Origin: Flavivirga spongiicola
GTDB lineage: Bacteria; Bacteroidota; Bacteroidia; Flavobacteriales; Flavobacteriaceae
Direction of reading: 5' to 3'
DNA length: 64,000 bases
NCBI RefSeq assembly: GCF_030540825.1
Contig: NZ_JAUOEO010000002.1
Coordinates: 1 to 64,000 of the forward strand
The translations under genes were made by a program, and so were the position numbers. Below are positions 36,390-47,075 of the stretch, one piece after another. The notes beneath the pieces were generated by a model. That model worked only from the letters and a program-made list of their open reading frames with translations. It was not told the origin of the DNA and made no database searches. The first letter of the stretch is position 1; every line of letters begins with the position of its first letter.

Positions 36390-39300
36390 ATGAAATACAA
36401 GATTTGTATATTATTTTTAGTCAATTTCTATTGCTTTATTTCTTTTTGTCAAACGACCAAAATTGACAGTTTAAAAAGTGCTTTTTTAAATCAAAAATCA
36501 ACAGATTCTCTTAGGTTCGATGCTGGGCGTGATGCTTTTATGCTTTTGTTTAGACAAGACCTTGACTCGGCAAGGGGCTTTGGAAATAGCGTATTGAAAT
36601 TTGCTAAATTAAAGAATAACAAAGAATGGGAAGCGACCTTACTCCGTTATCTTGGAAACTCTTATGCGGTTCAAGGTAATTTTCAAGAAGCCTTAAAATA
36701 TTTTATTAGCAGCCATGTTATTCTAACTGAATTGTCGGACGAAAAAGGAATGACTACAACTTATAATAATATTGGAACTGTGCATTATGAATTAGGAAAT
36801 TTTCCTATGGCATTAGATAATTTATTAAAAGGATTAAAAATTGCAGAAACGCTAGATGATAAGGCTAATTTGGCAAGACTTACGAATAATTTGGGAAATG
36901 TATTCATAAGACAAAAAAATCAAGAAAAAGCTTTAGAATATTACCAATACAGCCTTAAATTAAAAAAAGAAATAGGTAATAAAAGAACCTTGCCTTATGC
37001 TTATAATAATGTTGGATTGGTGTATACCAATATAAAAAAGTTCGATCTGGCATTAAATAATTTATTGAAAAGTGCAGAACTTTCTGAAGAAATTAATGAT
37101 AAAAGATCGCTAACAAGAGCCTATAATAATATTGGTGCATTGTATAATTTACAAAGTCAGTTTTTAAAAGCTCAAGAATATTTAAATAAAAGTATTAAGA
37201 TAAAGAATGATATTGGAGATAGAGAAGGTTTGGTTTCTGCGTATTTGTATAGAGGAAGCTCTTATTTAAAAACCAAAGACTATTTAAAAGCAAAAGAAGA
37301 TTGCAAGAAAAGCTATGACTTGGCAACAGAAATGGGGGTTTTGATTGCTAAAAAACAGTCTTGTGAATGTTTGAGTACTGTTTGGGAAAAACTTGGTAAT
37401 CTAAATAAAGCATTAGACTATTATAAGCAATCTATCAGGGTAAAAGATTCATTATTTAATAAAGAAAAGACACAAGAGATTACACGGCAAGATATGCAGT
37501 ACCAATTTGAAAAACAGCAATTAGCCGATAGTATTGCATTTAATAATCAAAAAGCTGCACAAGAATTACAATTCGCAAACGACATAAATAAGCAACGAAA
37601 TAAATTAAATCTTATAGTTTTTGGAGGTTTAGGTTTGTTAATAATAGGAGTTGTTTATTGGCGTTCAAGACAAAAAAGTATAAAATTGATTCAAGAACGC
37701 AATGTTATAAATAAATTAAAGCAGGTAGACCAACTCAAAGATCAGTTTCTGGCAAATACATCACACGAATTGCGCACTCCTTTGAATGGAATTATTGGCT
37801 TGTCCGAATCTCTTAAAGACGGTGTAGCAGGACAATTATCGTCTAAGGCCATTGAAAATTTAGATATGATTGTGAATAGTGGCAAACGCTTATCCAATTT
37901 GGTTAATGATATTCTTGATTTTTCTAAATTAAAAAATAAAGACTTAGAACTTTCGCTTCGACCCACGGATGTGCATTCGGCTACCGATTTAGTTTTAAAA
38001 GTTTCCGAATTTTTAACTACGGGTAAAGAATTACGTTTAATTAATTTGATACCCAAGGATGTTCCATTAGTTGAAGCAGATGAAAATCGATTAGAACAAA
38101 TTTTGTATAACCTTATTGGAAATGCTATTAAATTTACTGAAACTGGTAAAGTCGAAATAAACGCATTAGAGAGCAATGATATGCTTTCAATTTCGATTTC
38201 GGATACGGGCATTGGGATTCCTGAAGAAAAATTTGAAACGATCTTTCAATCATTTGAGCAAGCCGATGGTTCTACAGCCAGAGAATATGGCGGAACGGGA
38301 TTAGGGCTTTCGGTTACAAAACAATTGGTTGAATTACATGGAGGTACCATAGCAGTGAATTCTGAAATTAATAAAGGTTCGACTTTTATATTTACTTTAC
38401 CAATAAGTAAAGAGGATAGAAAAACATTTAATAAATCTATAGTAAGGGAATCGTCTCAAAGCATTCAAAAAATTGATAACACAAATGATAATATTCAGGA
38501 GACTACCTCCAAAGTAAATAATGTTAATATCCGTATTCTTATTGTGGATGATATGGTCGTTAATAGGCGGGTTTTGGAAAACCATTTAACCTTGGCAGGG
38601 TATCATGTTGTTGAAGCTAGTAGTGGAAAAGAAGCTTTAAAGCTTATAGATGAATCAAGTTTTGATTTGGTTCTTTTAGATATCATGATGCCTAATATGT
38701 CTGGTTATGAGGTTTGTGAAAAAATAAGAGAACAGTATTTAACAAGTGAATTACCTGTTGTTTTATTAACTGCTAAAAACAGGGTAAACGATTTGGTTAC
38801 TGGTTTTAATGTTGGAGCGAACGATTATTTGACTAAACCATTTTCGAAAAATGAATTGCTAAGCAGAATCAAAACACATTTAAACCTCAATGGTATTCAC
38901 AAAGCAACCAGCCGGTTTGTACCATCTGAATTCTTAAAGTCTGTCGGAAGAGAGGCCATAACAGATGTGGTTTTAGGAGATCATATTCAAAAGAAAGTGA
39001 CCGTTTTATTTACTGATATAAGAGATTATACAAACCTGTCTGAATCGATGACACCAGAGCAAAACTTTAAGTTTGTAAATGCTTATGTGGGGAGAATGGG
39101 CCCTATTATTCAAGACAATGAGGGATTTGTTAATCAATATTTAGGAGATGGTATTATGGCGTTGTTTCCTCACCATGCCAATTATGCATTAAAAGCTTCA
39201 ATAGAAATGCAGAAGGCAATACAAGATTATAATATGAAGCGCATAGAAGAAGGATACAGACCAATTTATGTTGGTATGGGATTGCATACCGGTGATCTGG

Positions 39301-39764
39301 TCATGGGAATCATAGGAGATGTTTATAGGAACGATACAGCTATTATTGCAGATACAGTGAATACAGCCTCAAGAATGGAAGGTGTCACTAAATATTATGG
39401 AGCCAATATTATTGTTAGTGCCGATAGTTTGAATACTATAGAAAACAGACAAGATTATAATTTTAGATATTTAGGAAAAGTAAAGGTAAAAGGAAAAAAT
39501 AATAGTATTGCTATTTATGAATGTTTTGACGGTGATCATACCGAAAGCATTATTTTGAAAACAAAAACATTGAAACATTTTGAAAAAGGGCTAAGTCATT
39601 TTTATAATAAAGAGTTTCCTAAGGCATCCGCAGCTTTTGATACGGTGTTAACTAAAAATCCTAACGATCATGTTGCTAAATATTTTGTTACCAAATCTGC
39701 TGAATACACTATTTCTGGCACACCTAAAGATTGGGATATGGTAAATAAGATGGAAACTAAATAA
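36390..39764 (+). CDS. TPR - histidine kinase - receiver - adenylate/guanylate cyclase hybrid
   Basis: A 1124-residue signalling protein. A signal sequence (about 1-21) is followed by about seven TPR units (80-375) outside the membrane, a coiled stretch, a membrane helix near 407-424, a HisKA domain with S-H-E-L-R-T-P (His about 458), HATPase_c with D-T-G-I-G-I-P and G-G-T-G-L-G-L-S, a receiver (715-835) with phosphorylatable Asp near 762 in L-V-L-L-D-I-M-M-P and a T-K-P-F loop, then a class III cyclase (865-1045). The cyclase keeps F-T-D-I-R-D and G-D-G metal sites and the V-N-T-A-S-R stretch, so it may be active. A short TPR-like tail follows. The protein joins sensing, phosphotransfer and cyclic-nucleotide output in one chain. 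It has its own gap on both sides. Confidence 0.88.
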   Translation: MKYKICILFLVNFYCFISFCQTTKIDSLKSAFLNQKSTDSLRFDAGRDAFMLLFRQDLDSARGFGNSVLKFAKLKNNKEWEATLLRYLGNSYAVQGNFQEALKYFISSHVILTELSDEKGMTTTYNNIGTVHYELGNFPMALDNLLKGLKIAETLDDKANLARLTNNLGNVFIRQKNQEKALEYYQYSLKLKKEIGNKRTLPYAYNNVGLVYTNIKKFDLALNNLLKSAELSEEINDKRSLTRAYNNIGALYNLQSQFLKAQEYLNKSIKIKNDIGDREGLVSAYLYRGSSYLKTKDYLKAKEDCKKSYDLATEMGVLIAKKQSCECLSTVWEKLGNLNKALDYYKQSIRVKDSLFNKEKTQEITRQDMQYQFEKQQLADSIAFNNQKAAQELQFANDINKQRNKLNLIVFGGLGLLIIGVVYWRSRQKSIKLIQERNVINKLKQVDQLKDQFLANTSHELRTPLNGIIGLSESLKDGVAGQLSSKAIENLDMIVNSGKRLSNLVNDILDFSKLKNKDLELSLRPTDVHSATDLVLKVSEFLTTGKELRLINLIPKDVPLVEADENRLEQILYNLIGNAIKFTETGKVEINALESNDMLSISISDTGIGIPEEKFETIFQSFEQADGSTAREYGGTGLGLSVTKQLVELHGGTIAVNSEINKGSTFIFTLPISKEDRKTFNKSIVRESSQSIQKIDNTNDNIQETTSKVNNVNIRILIVDDMVVNRRVLENHLTLAGYHVVEASSGKEALKLIDESSFDLVLLDIMMPNMSGYEVCEKIREQYLTSELPVVLLTAKNRVNDLVTGFNVGANDYLTKPFSKNELLSRIKTHLNLNGIHKATSRFVPSEFLKSVGREAITDVVLGDHIQKKVTVLFTDIRDYTNLSESMTPEQNFKFVNAYVGRMGPIIQDNEGFVNQYLGDGIMALFPHHANYALKASIEMQKAIQDYNMKRIEEGYRPIYVGMGLHTGDLVMGIIGDVYRNDTAIIADTVNTASRMEGVTKYYGANIIVSADSLNTIENRQDYNFRYLGKVKVKGKNNSIAIYECFDGDHTESIILKTKTLKHFEKGLSHFYNKEFPKASAAFDTVLTKNPNDHVAKYFVTKSAEYTISGTPKDWDMVNKMETK

Positions 39765-39797: not shown

Positions 39798-42700
39798 TCA
39801 TTTTTTATAAGTTAACTGTTGTTTTACTTTATTGTTTTGTAGCAATTTTGTTCTGCTAATATGATGAGCAGAGGCCATTTCTAAGTATTTATCAAATCGT
39901 TTGTCTACTCGTTTCTGTATATCTCGCATCAAAAGATTGCATTGTTCTTTGTCTTTTTTAAATAGCTTTGAGAAACGAGTTTCAAGTTTTAAATAGTCTT
40001 GAATTGGTATGGATGGCACTTCAGAATCAAGTTGTAGGGTATTCAGCCTCTTTTCTTCACGTCTTGGATCGTTTCTGTATAATATCCACTGACCAGAATT
40101 TACAGCAGCTTGATGATACCTACTAGGATGTTTCATGTCAATGCCATGTGAATCGCTATGAGAGTAAGCAATAATTATAGAAGGACCATCAAAACTTTCA
40201 GCTTCATTAAAAACTTTTAGGGTTTGTTCCTGATTGGCTCCAATAGCTACGGAGGCTACATAAACATGATCGTAATTCATAGCTAAAAAGCCCAAATCTT
40301 TTTTCTGTTTTTGTTTACCATTAAAAGCAAATTTAGCTTCAGCCCCAATGGGTGTTGCTTTAGATGCTTGTCCACCAGTATTATCATAAACCTCGTTATC
40401 TAAAACTAAAATATTCACATTTTTACCAGATGCCATGACATGATCTAATCCGCCATAACCAATATCGTATGCCCACCCATCGCCTCCTACAATCCAAACA
40501 CTTTTTTTAACCAAGCTATCTGCTATATTCAGAAGTTGTTTAGCTTCGGTAGACGCTATGGTTTTAAGTTGTTCTTTAAGTGTTTCAACTCTAACTCGTT
40601 GTTGGTTAATTTCAGTTTCTGTTGTTTGTTTTGCTTTTATAATATCATAAACCAAATCAAAGTCTAGTTGTGCTATTAGTTTTGTCAGTAATGTTTTAGC
40701 TTGTTTTTCTTGCTGGTTTATTGATAAACGATATCCCAAACCAAATTCAGCATTATCTTCAAATAATGAATTAGACCACGCAGGGCCTTGTCCCTTTTTG
40801 TTTTTACTCCAAGGTGTGGTTGGCAAAGCACCACCAAATATAGAACTAGCGCCAGTTGCATTCGCAACTAAAAGTCTATCCCCGAACAATTGCGACATAA
40901 GTTTTAAATAGGGAGCCTCACCACAACCTTCAACACCAGTTGAATATTTAAATAAAGGTTCTTGTAGTTGTTGTTGACTCACTTTTGTAGGATCAATTTT
41001 TTCTCTGTCGAATTCGGGAATACTTTCAAAATGTTCCCAATTTTGTTTTTCAGATTCGATAACTGGCAATTTATCAATCATTGTTAATGCTTTTACAGAG
41101 CAAGCATCTACACAATTATGGCATCCGTTACACTGTTTCGGATTTATTTGAATAGTATAATTTAATAGATCAATTTCCCAATCGGTTTCAACAGATTTTA
41201 CAGATTTAAAATTCGAAGGAGCGCTTTTTAAGTAAGAATCTTCATAGGCCTTAATTCTAAGAGCACCTTGTGGGCAAGCCATACTGCAAGCGCCACATTG
41301 CGTGCATAAATCTTGATGCCATTCAGGTAAGAACTCACTTTGTTGAATAGGGGTAAATCTTGCTGTATCACTAGGATATGTTCCATCCGACGGAAGCAAG
41401 CTTACGGGAACATCATTGCCTTTATTGGCAAGTAATTTTCCCAGGAGTGTATTATTGAAACCATCATCAAAATTAAAAAATACTTCTTCATTTTGATATG
41501 TTTCAGATGTGTCGACCTGATATATAAAATCGTTTAAATCTGTTATGGAGTCAGAAAAGATCAAACCTTTTTTAAGTGCTAAAAAGCAAGCATGTAATTC
41601 AGATAATGTGCTGTTTTTTAAAATGTTTAATTGTACTAACTCGTTACTGTCTACTATTAGTAAATTAATTTTTTTCTCTATTAGTCGCTGTTGTGTTTTA
41701 GTCGATAATGACTGCCAGAATGCTTTAGACTTTAATGAAGTATTGACCAAAAGTGTCCCCTCAGATTTTATATGATCTATAACATTGTCGTTTTGCGTGA
41801 AGTTAGCATTCCGGCATCCTATAAAATCGGCTTGCTCTATTAAATAAGGAGCTTTTATAGCTGTTTCATTTATACGTAAGTGAGCAATATTATAAGCGTT
41901 GGATTTTTTATAGTCACATTGTGTATACCCTTGTATATAAGTGTTTTTTTTCTTTCCAATACTATTTAGCATATTGGCAAAGCTTTGTGTTTCTTCTTTG
42001 TTTTTTTCTTGATAAAAAATAGCTTCGTAAGCTTTGTTTTTTATTTGAATGGTTTCTGAAAAGTCCAGGCTCAAATTTTTCACATCATCGTTAATACCTA
42101 TTGTAAAATTGTTTTTTGGTCGTTCTTGTTTTAGATTGTTGAAGATAGCCTGAACCATGATTGGAGTGAACTCTTTTGAAGATAATCCATAACGTCCTCC
42201 AACTATTTTTGGGAACGCTGTTATTTTGTTATTTTGAAATGCTTCTGAAATAGATTGTACAATGTCTAAATATAGTGGCTCACCAGTCGAACCAGGTTCT
42301 TTAGTTCTATCTAAAACTGCAATTGATTTTACTGATTTCGGTAAGGCTTTAACTAAATGTTTTGTGCTAAAAGGTCTAAATAGTCTAACTTTTATTAATC
42401 CAAGTTTTCCGCCGTTTTTATTTAAATGCGTGATGGTTTCTTCTATTGTTTCGGTTGAAGATGCCATAGAAATAATGATATGCTCTGCCTCTAAGTGCCC
42501 AACATAATCAAATAACTTATAAGCTCTTCCTGTTAGTAAAGCAAAAGTGTCCATGTGTTTTTGAACGATATCTGGACAAGCATCGTAAAAAGGGTTGATG
42601 GCTTCTCTACTTTGAAAAAAAACATCTGCATTTTGAGCTGTTCCCCTAATCACAGGATTATTTGGGTTTAAAGCACGATTTTTATGTTCTTCTATATCTT

Positions 42701-43295
42701 TTAAATCCATCATTAATTGGATGGTTTCATCTTGAACAGTTTCTATTTTGTTTATTTCATGAGAGGTTCTAAACCCATCAAAAAAGTGAATAAAAGGAAT
42801 GCGAGAATCTAAGGTGGCGGCTTGGGCTATTAATGCAAAATCCTGAGCTTCTTGTACAGAAGCGCTGCCTAGTATCGCGTAACCGGATTGACGTACTGCC
42901 ATAATATCACTATGATCTCCAAAAACAGATAAAGCATGTGTTGCTATACTTCTGGTAGCTACATGAATAACATTAGGAGTTAATTCGCCAGCAATTTTAT
43001 ACATATTTGGTAGCATTAAAAGTAACCCTTGAGAAGCTGTGAAAGTTGTTGATAAAGCCCCTGTTTGTAAGGCACCATGCATAGATCCGGCAACGCCGGC
43101 TTCACTTTGCATTTGAAAAACAGAAGGTATATTTCCAAAAGTATTTTGTTTTTTTTCTGAACACCATTGCTCTACCAATTCACTCATTTCTGAAGATGGA
43201 GTAATAGGGTAAATAGGGAAGACCTCATTTGTTTTGTAAGCTATGTGTGCTACAGCTTGATTGGCGTTCAATATGCTATGTGTTGAAGTTTTCAT
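39798..43295 (-). CDS. nifJ: Pyruvate:ferredoxin (flavodoxin) oxidoreductase-like protein
   Basis: An 1165-residue protein with the full PFOR layout: pyrimidine-binding domain with Y-P-I-T-P-S-S, transketolase-C-like and gamma domains, a 2[4Fe-4S] ferredoxin domain (C-T-Q-C-G-A-C-S-M-A-C-P near 661 and C-N-G-C-H-N-C-V-D-A-C near 718), and a thiamine-diphosphate domain (G-D-G-W-A-Y-D-I-G near 935 and N-T-G-G-Q). Known PFORs convert pyruvate and CoA to acetyl-CoA, CO2 and reduced ferredoxin. Oddly, the proximal-cluster ligands are changed: C-E-G-C-G-E is V-E-G-C-G-E, A-T-G-C-S-S is A-T-G-A-S-S, and the late Y-S-P-C is Y-S-H-S. Electron exit should therefore differ. It lies 75 bases downstream of osmC. 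Confidence 0.87.
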   Translation of the reverse strand: MKTSTHSILNANQAVAHIAYKTNEVFPIYPITPSSEMSELVEQWCSEKKQNTFGNIPSVFQMQSEAGVAGSMHGALQTGALSTTFTASQGLLLMLPNMYKIAGELTPNVIHVATRSIATHALSVFGDHSDIMAVRQSGYAILGSASVQEAQDFALIAQAATLDSRIPFIHFFDGFRTSHEINKIETVQDETIQLMMDLKDIEEHKNRALNPNNPVIRGTAQNADVFFQSREAINPFYDACPDIVQKHMDTFALLTGRAYKLFDYVGHLEAEHIIISMASSTETIEETITHLNKNGGKLGLIKVRLFRPFSTKHLVKALPKSVKSIAVLDRTKEPGSTGEPLYLDIVQSISEAFQNNKITAFPKIVGGRYGLSSKEFTPIMVQAIFNNLKQERPKNNFTIGINDDVKNLSLDFSETIQIKNKAYEAIFYQEKNKEETQSFANMLNSIGKKKNTYIQGYTQCDYKKSNAYNIAHLRINETAIKAPYLIEQADFIGCRNANFTQNDNVIDHIKSEGTLLVNTSLKSKAFWQSLSTKTQQRLIEKKINLLIVDSNELVQLNILKNSTLSELHACFLALKKGLIFSDSITDLNDFIYQVDTSETYQNEEVFFNFDDGFNNTLLGKLLANKGNDVPVSLLPSDGTYPSDTARFTPIQQSEFLPEWHQDLCTQCGACSMACPQGALRIKAYEDSYLKSAPSNFKSVKSVETDWEIDLLNYTIQINPKQCNGCHNCVDACSVKALTMIDKLPVIESEKQNWEHFESIPEFDREKIDPTKVSQQQLQEPLFKYSTGVEGCGEAPYLKLMSQLFGDRLLVANATGASSIFGGALPTTPWSKNKKGQGPAWSNSLFEDNAEFGLGYRLSINQQEKQAKTLLTKLIAQLDFDLVYDIIKAKQTTETEINQQRVRVETLKEQLKTIASTEAKQLLNIADSLVKKSVWIVGGDGWAYDIGYGGLDHVMASGKNVNILVLDNEVYDNTGGQASKATPIGAEAKFAFNGKQKQKKDLGFLAMNYDHVYVASVAIGANQEQTLKVFNEAESFDGPSIIIAYSHSDSHGIDMKHPSRYHQAAVNSGQWILYRNDPRREEKRLNTLQLDSEVPSIPIQDYLKLETRFSKLFKKDKEQCNLLMRDIQKRVDKRFDKYLEMASAHHISRTKLLQNNKVKQQLTYKK

Positions 43296-43320: not shown

Positions 43321-43361
43321 AAAAAATGACTACTCCTATTATTTTCGAGTAGTCATTTTTT
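43321..43361 (-). terminator. Rho-independent terminator after osmC
   Basis: A 15-bp perfect inverted repeat (43321-43335 with 43347-43361) has T runs at both ends, so it can stop transcripts in either direction. It lies between osmC and the PFOR-like gene and probably limits but need not abolish readthrough. Confidence 0.8.
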
Positions 43362-43370
43362 TGTTTGTTA

Positions 43371-43922
43371 CTACTTTACAATTTCTATTGAAACAGGAGT
43401 AGGGTTTGTAATCATATCGAATACAGGAGAGAATTTAGCTAAATTTTCCAATTGCTCGGTTGATGCATCAGATTTTACTTTAAGGACCACTTTGATACCG
43501 TCAAAACCGTTACGTACTTCAGGATCTAGTCCTAAAAATCCGTGTAGATCAACACCACCTGCTAAAGTCGATTCAGCACTTTCAATGTCAATACCGTTTG
43601 CAGCTGCATGGTATGTCATCGCAGCAGTTAAGCAAGAACCTAAAGCGTGTAACACAACTTCTGGTGGGGTAGCGGCTTTATCTTTTCCTAATAATACATT
43701 TGGATGATCGCATTCCATTGTAAAAGTTTCTTGACGAGATGCATCCTCTTGTCCTACACCGTAAAAACTTTTGATATTTGATACACAATGTCCGCCTTCT
43801 ATCCAATCGTTTTTAGATCTGAATTCGAATTTTGCTAAATCTGGATTTTGTTGAACTGCTCCAATAGTTTCTACTAATTGGTCTACGTTTACACCGTTTT
43901 TTACATTTGCTGTTGTAATCAT
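43371..43922 (-). CDS. OsmC family peroxiredoxin-like protein
   Basis: A 183-residue cytosolic protein of the OsmC/Ohr superfamily, which reduces organic hydroperoxides or acts on related thiol chemistry. The two typical cysteines are present, one in M-E-C-D-H-P and one in G-S-C-L-T-A-A-M. The family phrase T-P-P-E-V-V-L-H-A-L-G-S-C is clear. A strong sigma-54-type promoter lies 50 bases upstream of its ATG, suggesting that it is induced by a sigma-54 activator, perhaps the one at 45.2 kb. Confidence 0.88.
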   Translation of the reverse strand: MITTANVKNGVNVDQLVETIGAVQQNPDLAKFEFRSKNDWIEGGHCVSNIKSFYGVGQEDASRQETFTMECDHPNVLLGKDKAATPPEVVLHALGSCLTAAMTYHAAANGIDIESAESTLAGGVDLHGFLGLDPEVRNGFDGIKVVLKVKSDASTEQLENLAKFSPVFDMITNPTPVSIEIVK

Positions 43923-43969: not shown

Positions 43970-43986
43970 AGCTAACAGTATGCCAA
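43970..43986 (-). promoter_or_regulatory. Putative sigma-54 (-24/-12) promoter of osmC
   Basis: On the minus strand the sequence is TTGGCATACTGTTAGCT, with GG and GC separated by exactly 10 bases, as required for RpoN. It agrees with TGGCAY-N5-TTGCW except at one base of the -12 element. Transcription would begin near 43960, giving a leader of about 38 bases before osmC. It lies 1.3 kb from the end of a sigma-54 activator gene. Confidence 0.65.
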
Positions 43987-44041: not shown

Positions 44042-44077
44042 CTAACGATATTTCAAAAAATTACGAAATATCGTTAG
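44042..44077 (-). terminator. Rho-independent terminator of the S33 hydrolase gene
   Basis: A 13-bp perfect stem with a 10-base loop lies about 60 bases after the S33 stop and is followed on the minus strand by TTTTCTTT. It separates this gene from the osmC promoter region. Confidence 0.75.
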
Positions 44078-44135: not shown

Positions 44136-45194
44136 TTAAAAACTACCATTATCTACATCTTTAATAAAACTTATAAGTCCTTTAAAAAAGTTTTCTTGGT
44201 CATCATATTGTGATAAATGGCTTCCGTTAGGGCAATGTAAGTATCTACCGTTTTGTACCTCGGTAGCTATCCATTCCATCTGTTTTGGATCCATAGTATC
44301 ATATTCTGCACCTATACTAAGTGTGGGAACAGAAATATTTTTAAGCTTATCTTTTACATTCCAATGTTTTAGTGTAGCATCACCTTTTATCCCAAATTCA
44401 CTAGGACCTTGCATAGTAACATAAACATCTGGGTTTAAATGATGAAAAGCTCTATTTATTGAATTTGGCCATTTTTCAACAGGCATTCTAATAATATGCT
44501 TTGTATAATAATTTTGAACAATAAGATCTAAATAGCGTTCGTTACTATAATCTTCTTTATTTTCATAAGCCATAATTTCTTCTAAAACCTCTGGAGGTAA
44601 TTGAGGTGCCAATACTTCATCAGAGTATTTTTGGTATTCAGGTATTGATGCTACCATATTAGAAATAACAAGTCCTTTTAGATTTTGTTGATACTTTAAG
44701 GCATATTCCATAGCTAAAATACCACCCCAAGATTGCCCATATAAGTAAAAATTGTCTTTATTTAAACCAAGAGCACCCCTAACTTGCTCAACCTCTTCTA
44801 CAAAACGTGGCAAATCCCATAAGGATAAATCTTTAGGTTGATCGCTGTAATAGGAACCCAATTGGTCGTAGTAATAAAACTCAATGCCTTCTTGTGGAAA
44901 ATAACCATTAAAACATTCATATATTTCATGTGTCATACCAGGTCCGCCATGTAGCAATAATACTTTTATTTTTGGGTTATTCCCCATGCGCTTAGTCCAA
45001 ACTTTAAATTCACCTTTAGGCGTTTCTATAGGAATCATTTTAATTCCACCAGTAAACTGGTCATCACGCCCAGTGTTGTCATGATACATTTTAATAGAAA
45101 TATTTGCATCAGAATCAGAAATAGGTTCTTTTTTTTGCTGATTGTTACAACCAATAAATAGTAATATTGAGCAAAATAGAATAATGTTTTTCAT
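44136..45194 (-). CDS. Proline iminopeptidase-like alpha/beta hydrolase lipoprotein (S33)
   Basis: A 352-residue exported lipoprotein with Cys16 in F-I-G-C. The S33 signatures are H-G-G-P-G-M-T-H near 80 (oxyanion loop) and the nucleophile elbow G-Q-S-W-G-G near 155, with an Asp in E-Y-D-T-M-D and a His in G-S-H-L-S near the end. It probably releases N-terminal Pro or another residue from peptides outside the inner membrane. It lies 48 bases after the sigma-54 activator gene on the same strand, so the two may be cotranscribed. Confidence 0.88.
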   Translation of the reverse strand: MKNIILFCSILLFIGCNNQQKKEPISDSDANISIKMYHDNTGRDDQFTGGIKMIPIETPKGEFKVWTKRMGNNPKIKVLLLHGGPGMTHEIYECFNGYFPQEGIEFYYYDQLGSYYSDQPKDLSLWDLPRFVEEVEQVRGALGLNKDNFYLYGQSWGGILAMEYALKYQQNLKGLVISNMVASIPEYQKYSDEVLAPQLPPEVLEEIMAYENKEDYSNERYLDLIVQNYYTKHIIRMPVEKWPNSINRAFHHLNPDVYVTMQGPSEFGIKGDATLKHWNVKDKLKNISVPTLSIGAEYDTMDPKQMEWIATEVQNGRYLHCPNGSHLSQYDDQENFFKGLISFIKDVDNGSF

Positions 45195-45242: not shown

Positions 45243-47075
45243 CTAAACAGGCCTTTCAATGCCTAAAGCTTTTATTCTTGAAGCAAGTGTAGTAGAGGGG
45301 AGCTGTAACAAAGCAGCGGCTCCATTGTTACCAGAAATCTTCCATCTGGTTTGCTTTAAAGCTTTTAGTATGTTTTCTTTTTCTAAAATGACTAATTCTT
45401 TAGAAGTAAGAATTTTTTCTTTTGCAGGTTCTTGAGTTATATTTTTTGGGTCTTGATCTCTTGGTATAATTGAATGCCAATTTATAATACCGTTTTGTGA
45501 AACGATCACAGCGCGTTCAATTAAATTCTGTAGTTCTCGAACATTTCCTGGCCATTTATAAGAAGTAAGTAATGATTTATCAGTTTCTGATAACTTAACA
45601 ATAGGTTTATTCAATTTTTTAGAAAACTGAGTGATCATTTCATCAGCAATTAGACAAACATCATTTCCCCTGCTTCTAAGGGCAGGAACTTCGATAGGGA
45701 AAACGTTAAGCCTATAGTACAGATCTTCTCTGAATTTACCTTCTTTGGAAAATTCAAAAAGGTTTCTATGCGTGGCTGCTATAATTCTAACATCAACCTT
45801 AATGGTTTCTGAGCTTCCAACAGGATCGAACTCACCTTCTTGAATGATGCGCAATAATTTAGGCTGTAATTCTAATGGCATTTCTCCAATTTCATCTAAA
45901 AAAATGGTGCCTTTATCTGCTAATAAAAAGCGCCCCTTTCTACTAACAGTAGCACCTGTAAAAGCACCTTTTTCATGTCCGAATAATTCACTTTCAATAA
46001 GGTTAGCAGGTATGGCACCACAATTAATGCGAATTAAAGGCTTGTCGTTTCTGTTGCTTTCTTTATGAATAGCTCTGGCAACTAATTCCTTGCCTGTTCC
46101 CGTTTCACCATTTATTAAAACAGTAGCGTTTGTTTTTGCTACTTGATGAATAAGGTTTAAAGCGTCTTTCATGCTTTTATCCTCAGCAATTATACCATAA
46201 CTGCTGGTAAGTTCTTGAATTTCTTCAGCTAAATATTGTGTTTGTTTCGTTAGTAAATTTATTTTGTCTTCTGCGACTAAACGCTCTTCAATATTTCTAA
46301 GAATAAGGGTGTAAAAGGTTTTAGTATCTGTACCATATTTGCTTATGGTGCCTTCATTTAAAGTTTCAGTATTGTTCGATCCTATTACTTTTACAATATT
46401 TGAAAGATATTTGTTTATTGATTTTTTATCGTCTTCGGCTTTAACAATCGATTCGATTAAACTAGCACTGCTTTCATCAAAGAAAAATAAGACGTTACGT
46501 TGAAGCGAGTCGTCATTTTCTAATAAAGTGTTTGCCGAAGGATTTGTAAGCACAATTCTAAAGTCGTCGTTAAACATAATAATAGCGTCCATAGCGCCAT
46601 CAATAAGACCACTCATTTTACTATTTGCTATTTCAATGTCTAGCTTGGAAGATGCTAACCGCTCTTGGATGGTATCTAATTCACGGTGACGCTTTATCAT
46701 GACTGATAAAATACCCTGAGCAAATCCACTATCATTTTTAATTAAATCTAAAAAGTCTTCACGTTCAATTTTTAAAACTTTAGTACTTTCTATAGCAGTA
46801 ACTGATGCAGAGCGCGTTTCGTTATCTATTAAAGCATATTCGCCAAAGCAATCGCCCATACTTAATGTATCATAAATATGGTTTTTATCATGAATTTTTA
46901 CCGAACCATCCAAAACAACATACATGGAATTTCCAATGGTGTCTTTTTCAAAAACAACTTCATTTTTTATATAGGTTTCTTCGGTAATATTATCACATAA
47001 GTGCTGAAGAGATTCCTGAGAAACTTCAGAAAAAAAAGAAATGTCTGATAAAAAATTTATGAGGGTTTTAGTCAC
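45243..47075 (-). CDS. Sigma-54-dependent activator with cyclic-nucleotide-binding and PAS domains
   Basis: A 610-residue regulator. Residues 10-130 form a cNMP-binding domain with the phosphate cassette F-G-E-Y-A-L-I and R-S-A (Gly78, Glu79, Arg88, Ser89), the residues that hold cAMP in CRP. A PAS domain follows (about 155-270), then the AAA+ domain (about 300-535) with Walker A G-E-T-G-T-G-K-E, the GAFTGA loop and R-fingers, and a Fis-type helix-turn-helix (570-610). It activates RpoN promoters; a matching one lies before osmC. Sensing of cAMP or cGMP is inferred from the pocket. No phosphorylated receiver domain is present, so control should be by ligand. Confidence 0.93.

Follow-up and report, generated by a model that had tools for sequence, protein, structure and literature searches.

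Apparent loss of proximal-cluster ligands and of the CoA P-loop motif in a Flavobacteriaceae clade of PFOR-like proteins

Results

A PFOR-like gene in a regulatory locus of Flavivirga spongiicola

The window analysed here, a 64,000-nucleotide (nt) stretch of the Flavivirga spongiicola genome (contig NZ_JAUOEO010000002.1, positions 1 to 64,000), carries a gene for a protein resembling the anaerobic enzyme pyruvate:ferredoxin oxidoreductase (PFOR), which lies between a kinase-cyclase gene on the opposite strand and an upstream osmC-like gene with a sigma-54 promoter-like element and a sigma-54 activator gene beyond it (Table 1). In PFOR the proximal [4Fe-4S] cluster is the electron acceptor from the thiamine radical, and a preliminary description of this DNA had noticed that three of the four cysteines binding that cluster are replaced in the window protein. 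As far as sequence comparison can establish, our survey shows that the protein belongs to one conserved Flavobacteriaceae clade of PFOR-fold proteins that lack proximal [4Fe-4S] ligands and, in addition, the P-loop motif for coenzyme A (CoA).

Three proximal-cluster cysteines are replaced in the window protein

The window protein matched TIGR02176, the NCBIfam equivalog model for PFOR, over its full length with 1404.6 bits (cut-off 911.35), and is about 40% identical over nearly its full length to the solved PFORs of Moorella thermoacetica and Desulfovibrio africanus. In HMMER alignments to these structures (6cin for M. thermoacetica, 1b0p/7plm for D. africanus), no gap falls at any proximal-cluster ligand site: the stretch with the first two sites reads STGVEGCGE in the window protein where 6cin reads SGACAGCGE, the third lies in NATGASS where the solved PFOR has NATGCSS, and the fourth lies in AYSHS where 6cin has AYAPC and 1b0p has AYATC. 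V788, A816 and S1047 thus stand in place of cysteine, with C791 as the sole proximal ligand kept (1/4), confirming both the three substitutions and the single remaining ligand described earlier. A shift of the cysteines by a small gap, raised in advance as a way in which the observation could fail, is ruled out by the same gap-free alignments. The other early observations also held: C1119 is the only cysteine beside C791 in the last 400 residues, the two ferredoxin-type motifs (C664-674 and C722-732) both follow CxxCxxCxxxC, and all residues checked at the site of thiamine diphosphate (ThDP) are present.

The substitutions recur in one Flavobacteriaceae clade

We searched a family sample of 299 Flavobacteriaceae genomes, 76 of which had a match; by hand count from the hit list, 30 have a gene like that of the window, at 53-86% identity to it (type A), 2 a divergent copy and 45 an ordinary PFOR gene (type B), with 4 genomes, the own genome among them, carrying both types and 3 having a fragment or distant match only. 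The alignment rows comprise 32 type-A sequences, one per genome, from this sample together with Flavivirga algicola and an uncultured Flavobacteriaceae bacterium, and 56 comparison rows from other Bacteroidota, namely 20 of the 45 type-B genes of the family, which were read at the cysteine level, and 36 rows from outside the family, one of them a fragment without the ligand sites. The outside rows come from a partly read class sample of 395 genomes, in which 60, counting those of the family and the own genome, had a match; a phylum sample of 395 genomes gave 5 matches at E 1e-200 or better (own genome included), with 4 rows read at sites 1-3. The duplicate window row was left out of the site counts, and one earlier row set was without six rows (two divergent, one canonical partial, two duplicates and one partial type A).

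Cysteine is absent from type-A rows at site 1 (0/32), site 3 (0/32) and site 4 (0/31 readable), and fills 55/55, 55/55 and 52/52 readable cells at these sites in the other Bacteroidota rows, so that the relatives with the same losses whose collection had been proposed earlier do exist, as 32 type-A rows in Flavobacteriaceae. The replacing residues are V, I, E or S at site 1 (V in 29/32), A or S at site 3 (A in 30/32) and S at site 4 (31/31 readable). The divergent members L042 and L043 likewise lack the three cysteines, site 4 being a gap in one of them, and C791 is cysteine in all 34 rows when they are counted with type A. These two (L042, genome G154, 1037 amino acids (aa); L043, genome G191, 1133 aa) are fast-evolving type-A-like copies, and in the alignment the shorter L042 has nothing to match the region of the fourth ligand.

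At position 1045, two residues ahead of the fourth ligand site, cysteine (AYCHS) is found in 22/31 readable type-A rows, serine in 8, the window among them, and threonine in 1, which rules this cysteine out as a universal relay. Separately, C240 (codon 42576..42578) is cysteine in 32/32 type-A rows, the other rows having valine in 35/56.

In a tree of these sequences, type A and the two divergent copies form one side of a long branch of about 0.7 changes per column, and a second tree with 10 type-A rows gave 0.68 changes per column. Five type-A pairs had pairwise ratios of nonsynonymous to synonymous substitution rates (dN/dS) of 0.090-0.152, values of purifying selection. The own genome also carries a canonical PFOR with all four cysteines (G000:C1:1528702-1532184, in L038). 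No type-A sequence was found outside Flavobacteriaceae among the 36 class-sample rows aligned and the 4 phylum rows read at sites 1-3.

A second loss in domain III

The type-A proteins also differ from canonical PFOR in domain III. A motif there, G(L/Y)G(S/A)DGTV(S/G)(A/G)NK, is present in 56/56 comparison rows and in none of the type-A (0/32) or divergent (0/2) rows. From its position, we take this glycine-rich motif to be the CoA P-loop, the P-loop of domain III being involved in CoA binding in the M. thermoacetica enzyme according to passages of PMC8091585. The Pfam POR domain scored 36.7 bits in the window protein vs. 117.9 in another Bacteroidota PFOR (L116). The earlier description of a modified enzyme is therefore well supported and is extended by this second loss.

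To place the losses within the protein, we compared identities by domain at matched domain-I identity, using 283 type-A and 153 canonical pairs, which are non-independent, with domain borders of our own setting and leaving out the duplicate window row, L031, L042, L043, L071 and L116-118. Domain III identity is 0.385 in type-A pairs vs. 0.703 in canonical pairs. The lobe of the lost cluster is not relaxed (0.860 in type A vs. 0.833) and is type A's most conserved of six stretches, and neither is the ThDP part (0.791 vs. 0.778). Thus the CoA domain has either degenerated or been turned to another use, with full selection kept on the active site.

Active-site residues and ferredoxin-type motifs are kept

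T32, E65, R115, D939 and N972 are kept wherever readable in type-A rows, and we take E65 (Glu64 of D. africanus PFOR) and D939 to be residues of the pyruvate/ThDP site. N967 corresponds to T991 of D. africanus, presumably a Mg2+ ligand, and is N in 31/31 readable type-A rows vs. T in 54/54 others. T32, R115 and N972 correspond to Thr31 (of YPITP), Arg114 and Asn996 of D. africanus PFOR, which are named as pyruvate/ThDP residues in passages of PMC5020499.

An opposite reduction was observed in one other family of the class, in which three PFOR-like proteins of about 1080 aa (L116:7109-10366, L117:7322-10549 and L118:7163-10402) retain all proximal ligand cysteines (4/4) as well as the CoA loop motif and have neither ferredoxin-type motif, indicating that a PFOR can shed both.

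An AlphaFold2 model of the window protein (mean predicted local distance difference test score, pLDDT, 76.9; predicted template modelling score, pTM, 0.71) supports the PFOR fold only. It carries nothing on the vacated pocket because pLDDT falls under 50 around the ThDP loops (residues 97-116, 118-126 and 971-994), and no interpretation is placed on the global root-mean-square deviation of near 31 Å between model and PFOR.

A conserved gene module surrounds the PFOR-like gene

We surveyed the 32 type-A loci over up to ~20 kb against 22 type-B loci as context controls, some loci being ended by a contig end (L098 among them), with bit-score cuts of our own choosing; for the kinase-cyclase query the cut of 400 denotes window-like genes. 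Every type-A locus (32/32) has an OsmC-like gene upstream of the PFOR-like gene and on its strand; a sigma-54 activator with a cyclic-nucleotide-binding domain is present at 29/32 and a class III cyclase gene, in one of two architectures, at 30/32, vs. 0/22 type-B loci for module genes above the same cuts. At 11/22 type-B loci the kinase-cyclase query did reach 94-109 bits, without any match to the cyclase domain alone. Of the three loci that lack an activator, L098 and L103 belong to genomes with a 71% identical copy elsewhere, and genome G173, the source of L096, has no full-length activator copy. The cyclase gene is missing too at L096 and at one further locus, and TGGCA precedes osmC at every type-A locus but L096. 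The AAA+ sigma-54 interaction domain of the window activator (Pfam 2.3e-74) and the GAFTGA in its translation identify it as a bacterial enhancer-binding protein, and rpoN was found in 16/16 type-A genomes tested.

Upstream of osmC, TGGCA occurs 50-80 nt before the start codon in 31/32 type-A loci, a fuller -24/-12 pattern in 27/32 and our first, strict pattern in 9/32; in the own genome, a strict pattern that misses the window's own promoter too had no match. An inverted repeat with a TCGTTA-like half-site (up to 2 mismatches) lies upstream in 20/32 loci, with arms and spacing that vary between the 20, vs. 0 in twenty mononucleotide shuffles. In the own genome no second site was found, the window copy being the only match of the searched pattern. 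The gap between osmC and the PFOR-like gene holds a hairpin with a T-run in 29/32 loci vs. 1/32 in each of five mononucleotide shuffles; the stem sequences vary between loci with pairing kept, and a stricter scan (loop limit 8) listed none.

Classical OsmC/Ohr peroxidases have two catalytic cysteines. In the alignment of all 32 OsmC-like proteins the SC is kept and, by eye, SPV stands at the site expected of the second cysteine, so that these proteins fall outside the two-cysteine type. The placement beside osmC and the sigma-54 promoter, in which the preliminary description had seen a fit to redox stress, are real and conserved, but redox stress does not follow from them: the promoter goes with a class III cyclase and with an activator that carries a cyclic-nucleotide domain, and the OsmC-like protein has one of the two cysteines. 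Domains and neighbourhood suggest that the cyclase may act on the activator, whose ligand may be cAMP or another molecule.

Several further observations concern the neighbourhood. The nearest solved structure to the OsmC-like protein by sequence is 2opl, and it has a weak match, below cut-off, to a model of an OsmC-related selenoprotein. An alpha/beta hydrolase gene (44136-45194) lies between activator and osmC, with a gene of the same cluster in that place at L093 only. At six type-A loci, including L037:13703-15841, the PFOR-like gene has as neighbours a gene for a SoxA/TsdA-type cytochrome c, one with a weak match to TetH (thiosulfate dehydrogenase) and one for a DsrE-like protein, a possible link to sulfur metabolism that covers these 6 loci, with the families checked in L037 alone. 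According to passages of PMC9478572, an OsmC gene of Bizionia is down in a regulator mutant; we found no tie between that gene and the operon described here.

Table 1 Features of the window around the PFOR-like gene
Feature	Position	Strand	Evidence
TPR / histidine kinase / receiver / class III cyclase protein	36390..39764	+	domain scan
PFOR-like ThDP enzyme (type A), 1165 aa	39798..43295	-	open reading frame translation, PFOR alignments, TIGR02176 score
Codon of S1047, ligand 4 site	40155..40157	-	alignment
Codon of A816, ligand 3 site	40848..40850	-	alignment
Codon of C791, only kept proximal ligand	40923..40925	-	alignment; Cys in 32/32 type A
Codon of V788, ligand 1 site	40932..40934	-	alignment
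Ferredoxin-type motif 2, C722/725/728/732, kept	41100..41132	-	sequence
Ferredoxin-type motif 1, C664/667/670/674, kept	41274..41306	-	sequence
Domain III stretch, CoA P-loop motif absent	41958..42017	-	row comparison
Terminator-like hairpin with T-run, between osmC and PFOR-like gene	43322..43360	-	scan of 32 loci
OsmC-like protein, one conserved Cys (GSC), upstream of PFOR-like gene	43371..43922	-	32/32 type-A, 0/22 type-B loci
Sigma-54 -24/-12-like element TGGCATACTGTTAGCT, 63 nt before osmC start	43970..43985	-	pattern, recurrence in loci
Perfect inverted repeat TAACGATATTTC-N10-GAAATATCGTTA, candidate activator site	44043..44076	-	pattern search
Sigma-54 activator: cyclic-nucleotide-binding domain, PAS match below cut-off, AAA+ with GAFTGA	45243..47075	-	translation, Pfam

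Discussion

The type-A proteins probably catalyze a different reaction under the PFOR name. With the proximal cluster gone there is no known electron path to the ferredoxin domain, and with the P-loop gone there is no known seat for CoA, so that CoA-independent decarboxylation is the simplest consequence of the two losses. We therefore favour, tentatively, a ThDP enzyme that works without CoA on pyruvate or a closely related 2-oxoacid and releases or ligates the hydroxyethyl group instead of following the PFOR route. Such an enzyme would bind ThDP and its substrate and decarboxylate the latter without forming acetyl-CoA and reduced ferredoxin as PFOR does; the hydroxyethyl group would most likely leave ThDP independently of CoA, either in the form of an aldehyde or joined to another carbonyl compound, and the ferredoxin domain would be retained for a redox or regulatory role of its own, perhaps with the OsmC-like protein as partner. 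Expression would be driven from the sigma-54 promoter by the activator with the cyclic-nucleotide domain, and the hairpin between the two genes probably makes the enzyme a minor read-through product relative to OsmC. Acetyl-CoA need not depend on the type-A enzyme, as E1_dh (PF00676) genes were found in all 16 of the 32 type-A genomes that were searched, the same 16 as for rpoN. The best hits lie in frames 332-350 aa long, the length expected of the pyruvate dehydrogenase (PDH) E1 alpha chain that they would encode.

Comparison with known systems sets the window protein apart in several respects. It shares with homodimeric PFOR/NifJ (TIGR02176; 6cin/6ciq, 1b0p/7plm) the domain order, the ThDP and pyruvate residues and the two ferredoxin-type motifs, and differs in its one of four proximal ligands, its missing CoA P-loop motif and the Thr to Asn change at N967. 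Oxalate oxidoreductase (5c4i), which uses no CoA and keeps its own clusters, has the same fold, that of the 2-oxoacid:ferredoxin oxidoreductases (OFORs), but is built from separate subunits, unlike the single chain here. Its YPIRP (passages of PMC5020499) reads YPITP in the window protein, and T32 is found in 32/32 type-A rows. The two-subunit Sulfolobus OFOR (5b46, 5b48) has the OFOR core and a reduced cluster content in common with the window protein, but according to passages of the same source it keeps the proximal cluster and is missing the ferredoxin domain, the opposite arrangement. With an intramolecular ferredoxin domain, the window protein is not of the two-subunit OFOR type. The bifunctional pyruvate oxidoreductase/pyruvate decarboxylase (POR/PDC) of Pyrococcus furiosus is a cluster-bearing OFOR. 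It also releases acetaldehyde non-oxidatively, as proposed here, but in a CoA-dependent manner (passages of PMC4030962).

Several findings weigh against a CoA-independent, non-oxidative enzyme. All eight ferredoxin cysteines are present in 32/32 type-A rows and both divergent members, and they argue for some redox role: if the chemistry were wholly non-oxidative, nothing should prevent their loss, as happened to these motifs in L116-118. The ferredoxin domain is just mildly relaxed (identity 0.570 in type A vs. 0.664 in canonical pairs). C791 too is invariant, and the PDC activity of P. furiosus itself requires CoA (passages of PMC4030962). Both losses lie on one branch, so that their association counts as one event, and the single canonical pair measured, at dN/dS 0.042, is under stronger selection than type A. 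Finally, PF00676 is not specific to PDH, with matches in 13/14 control genomes too.

The main rival, which we consider somewhat less likely, is an oxidative but likewise CoA-independent (acetate-forming) 2-oxoacid enzyme in which electrons would pass from ThDP to the ferredoxin domain along a new path, by way of another cofactor in the vacated pocket, a thiol/disulfide relay through C791 (with C1045 where present) or a moved ferredoxin domain. The eight invariant cluster cysteines, the high conservation of the lobe around the lost cluster, the constancy of C791 together with the frequent cysteine at 1045, and the adjacent gene for an OsmC-like protein with a single conserved cysteine at every type-A locus all speak for it. 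However, domain VI holds no second invariant cysteine, position 1045 being variable, the replacing residues are mostly small, and no new cofactor motif or extra domain was seen in the domain scan, which included no dedicated search for one. A new four-cysteine site in domain VI was ruled out, as C791 is the only invariant cysteine there. With the CoA P-loop motif gone as well, a change of reaction is more likely than a PFOR that has found another electron route. Of the earlier suggestions, another electron route and a non-oxidative decarboxylase are both still plausible.

More doubtful than this oxidative enzyme is a more elaborate proposal, in which type A would represent a new type of ThDP enzyme: an acetate-forming or in another way CoA-free 2-oxoacid oxidoreductase whose vacated proximal-cluster pocket at the invariant C791 holds a new electron or acyl acceptor (a thiol/disulfide or a novel cofactor) passing electrons to the two ferredoxin clusters, with the single-cysteine OsmC-like protein as obligate partner and a cyclic-nucleotide-gated sigma-54 switch. 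A sensor or scaffold that binds ThDP and 2-oxoacids without turnover would fit the tight linkage to signalling genes, but we regard it as improbable, since the substrate and ThDP residues are invariant where readable and the ThDP part is as constrained as in canonical PFOR. It is quite improbable that the proximal cluster is still bound through C791 and non-cysteine ligands such as S1047, or as a smaller cluster: both residues are constant wherever readable in type A, but the prevailing valine at site 1 and alanine at site 3 are unable to ligate iron, and the CoA motif is lost too. Very improbable, in turn, is an oxygen-tolerant PFOR with the usual reaction. The osmC neighbour, and weakly the fit of E1_dh in all tested genomes to aerobic life, would agree with such an enzyme; against it stand the lost CoA motif and the D. 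africanus PFOR, which is among the oxygen-stable PFORs in passages of PMC8887894 and keeps its four cysteines in our alignments. A pseudogene or sequencing error can be set aside, as the same substitutions recur in 32 genomes with long open frames and the dN/dS values of purifying selection, and no supporting point was found.

Our searches of an open-licence full-text library, from which subscription papers are mostly absent, turned up no report of a PFOR without its proximal cluster, or of a module of cyclase, activator, osmC and enzyme. The conserved set of cyclase, cyclic-nucleotide sigma-54 activator, osmC and enzyme forms a compact signalling module, and the clade offers a natural experiment on PFOR, in which the cluster that takes the thiamine-radical electron and the grip on CoA are gone with the active site fully selected. 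The curated PFOR model accepts the window protein far above its cut-off (the TIGR02176 score covers this protein, its relatives being 53-86% identical to it), so annotation by that model would wrongly credit these Flavobacteriaceae with a fermentative or ferredoxin-based metabolism.

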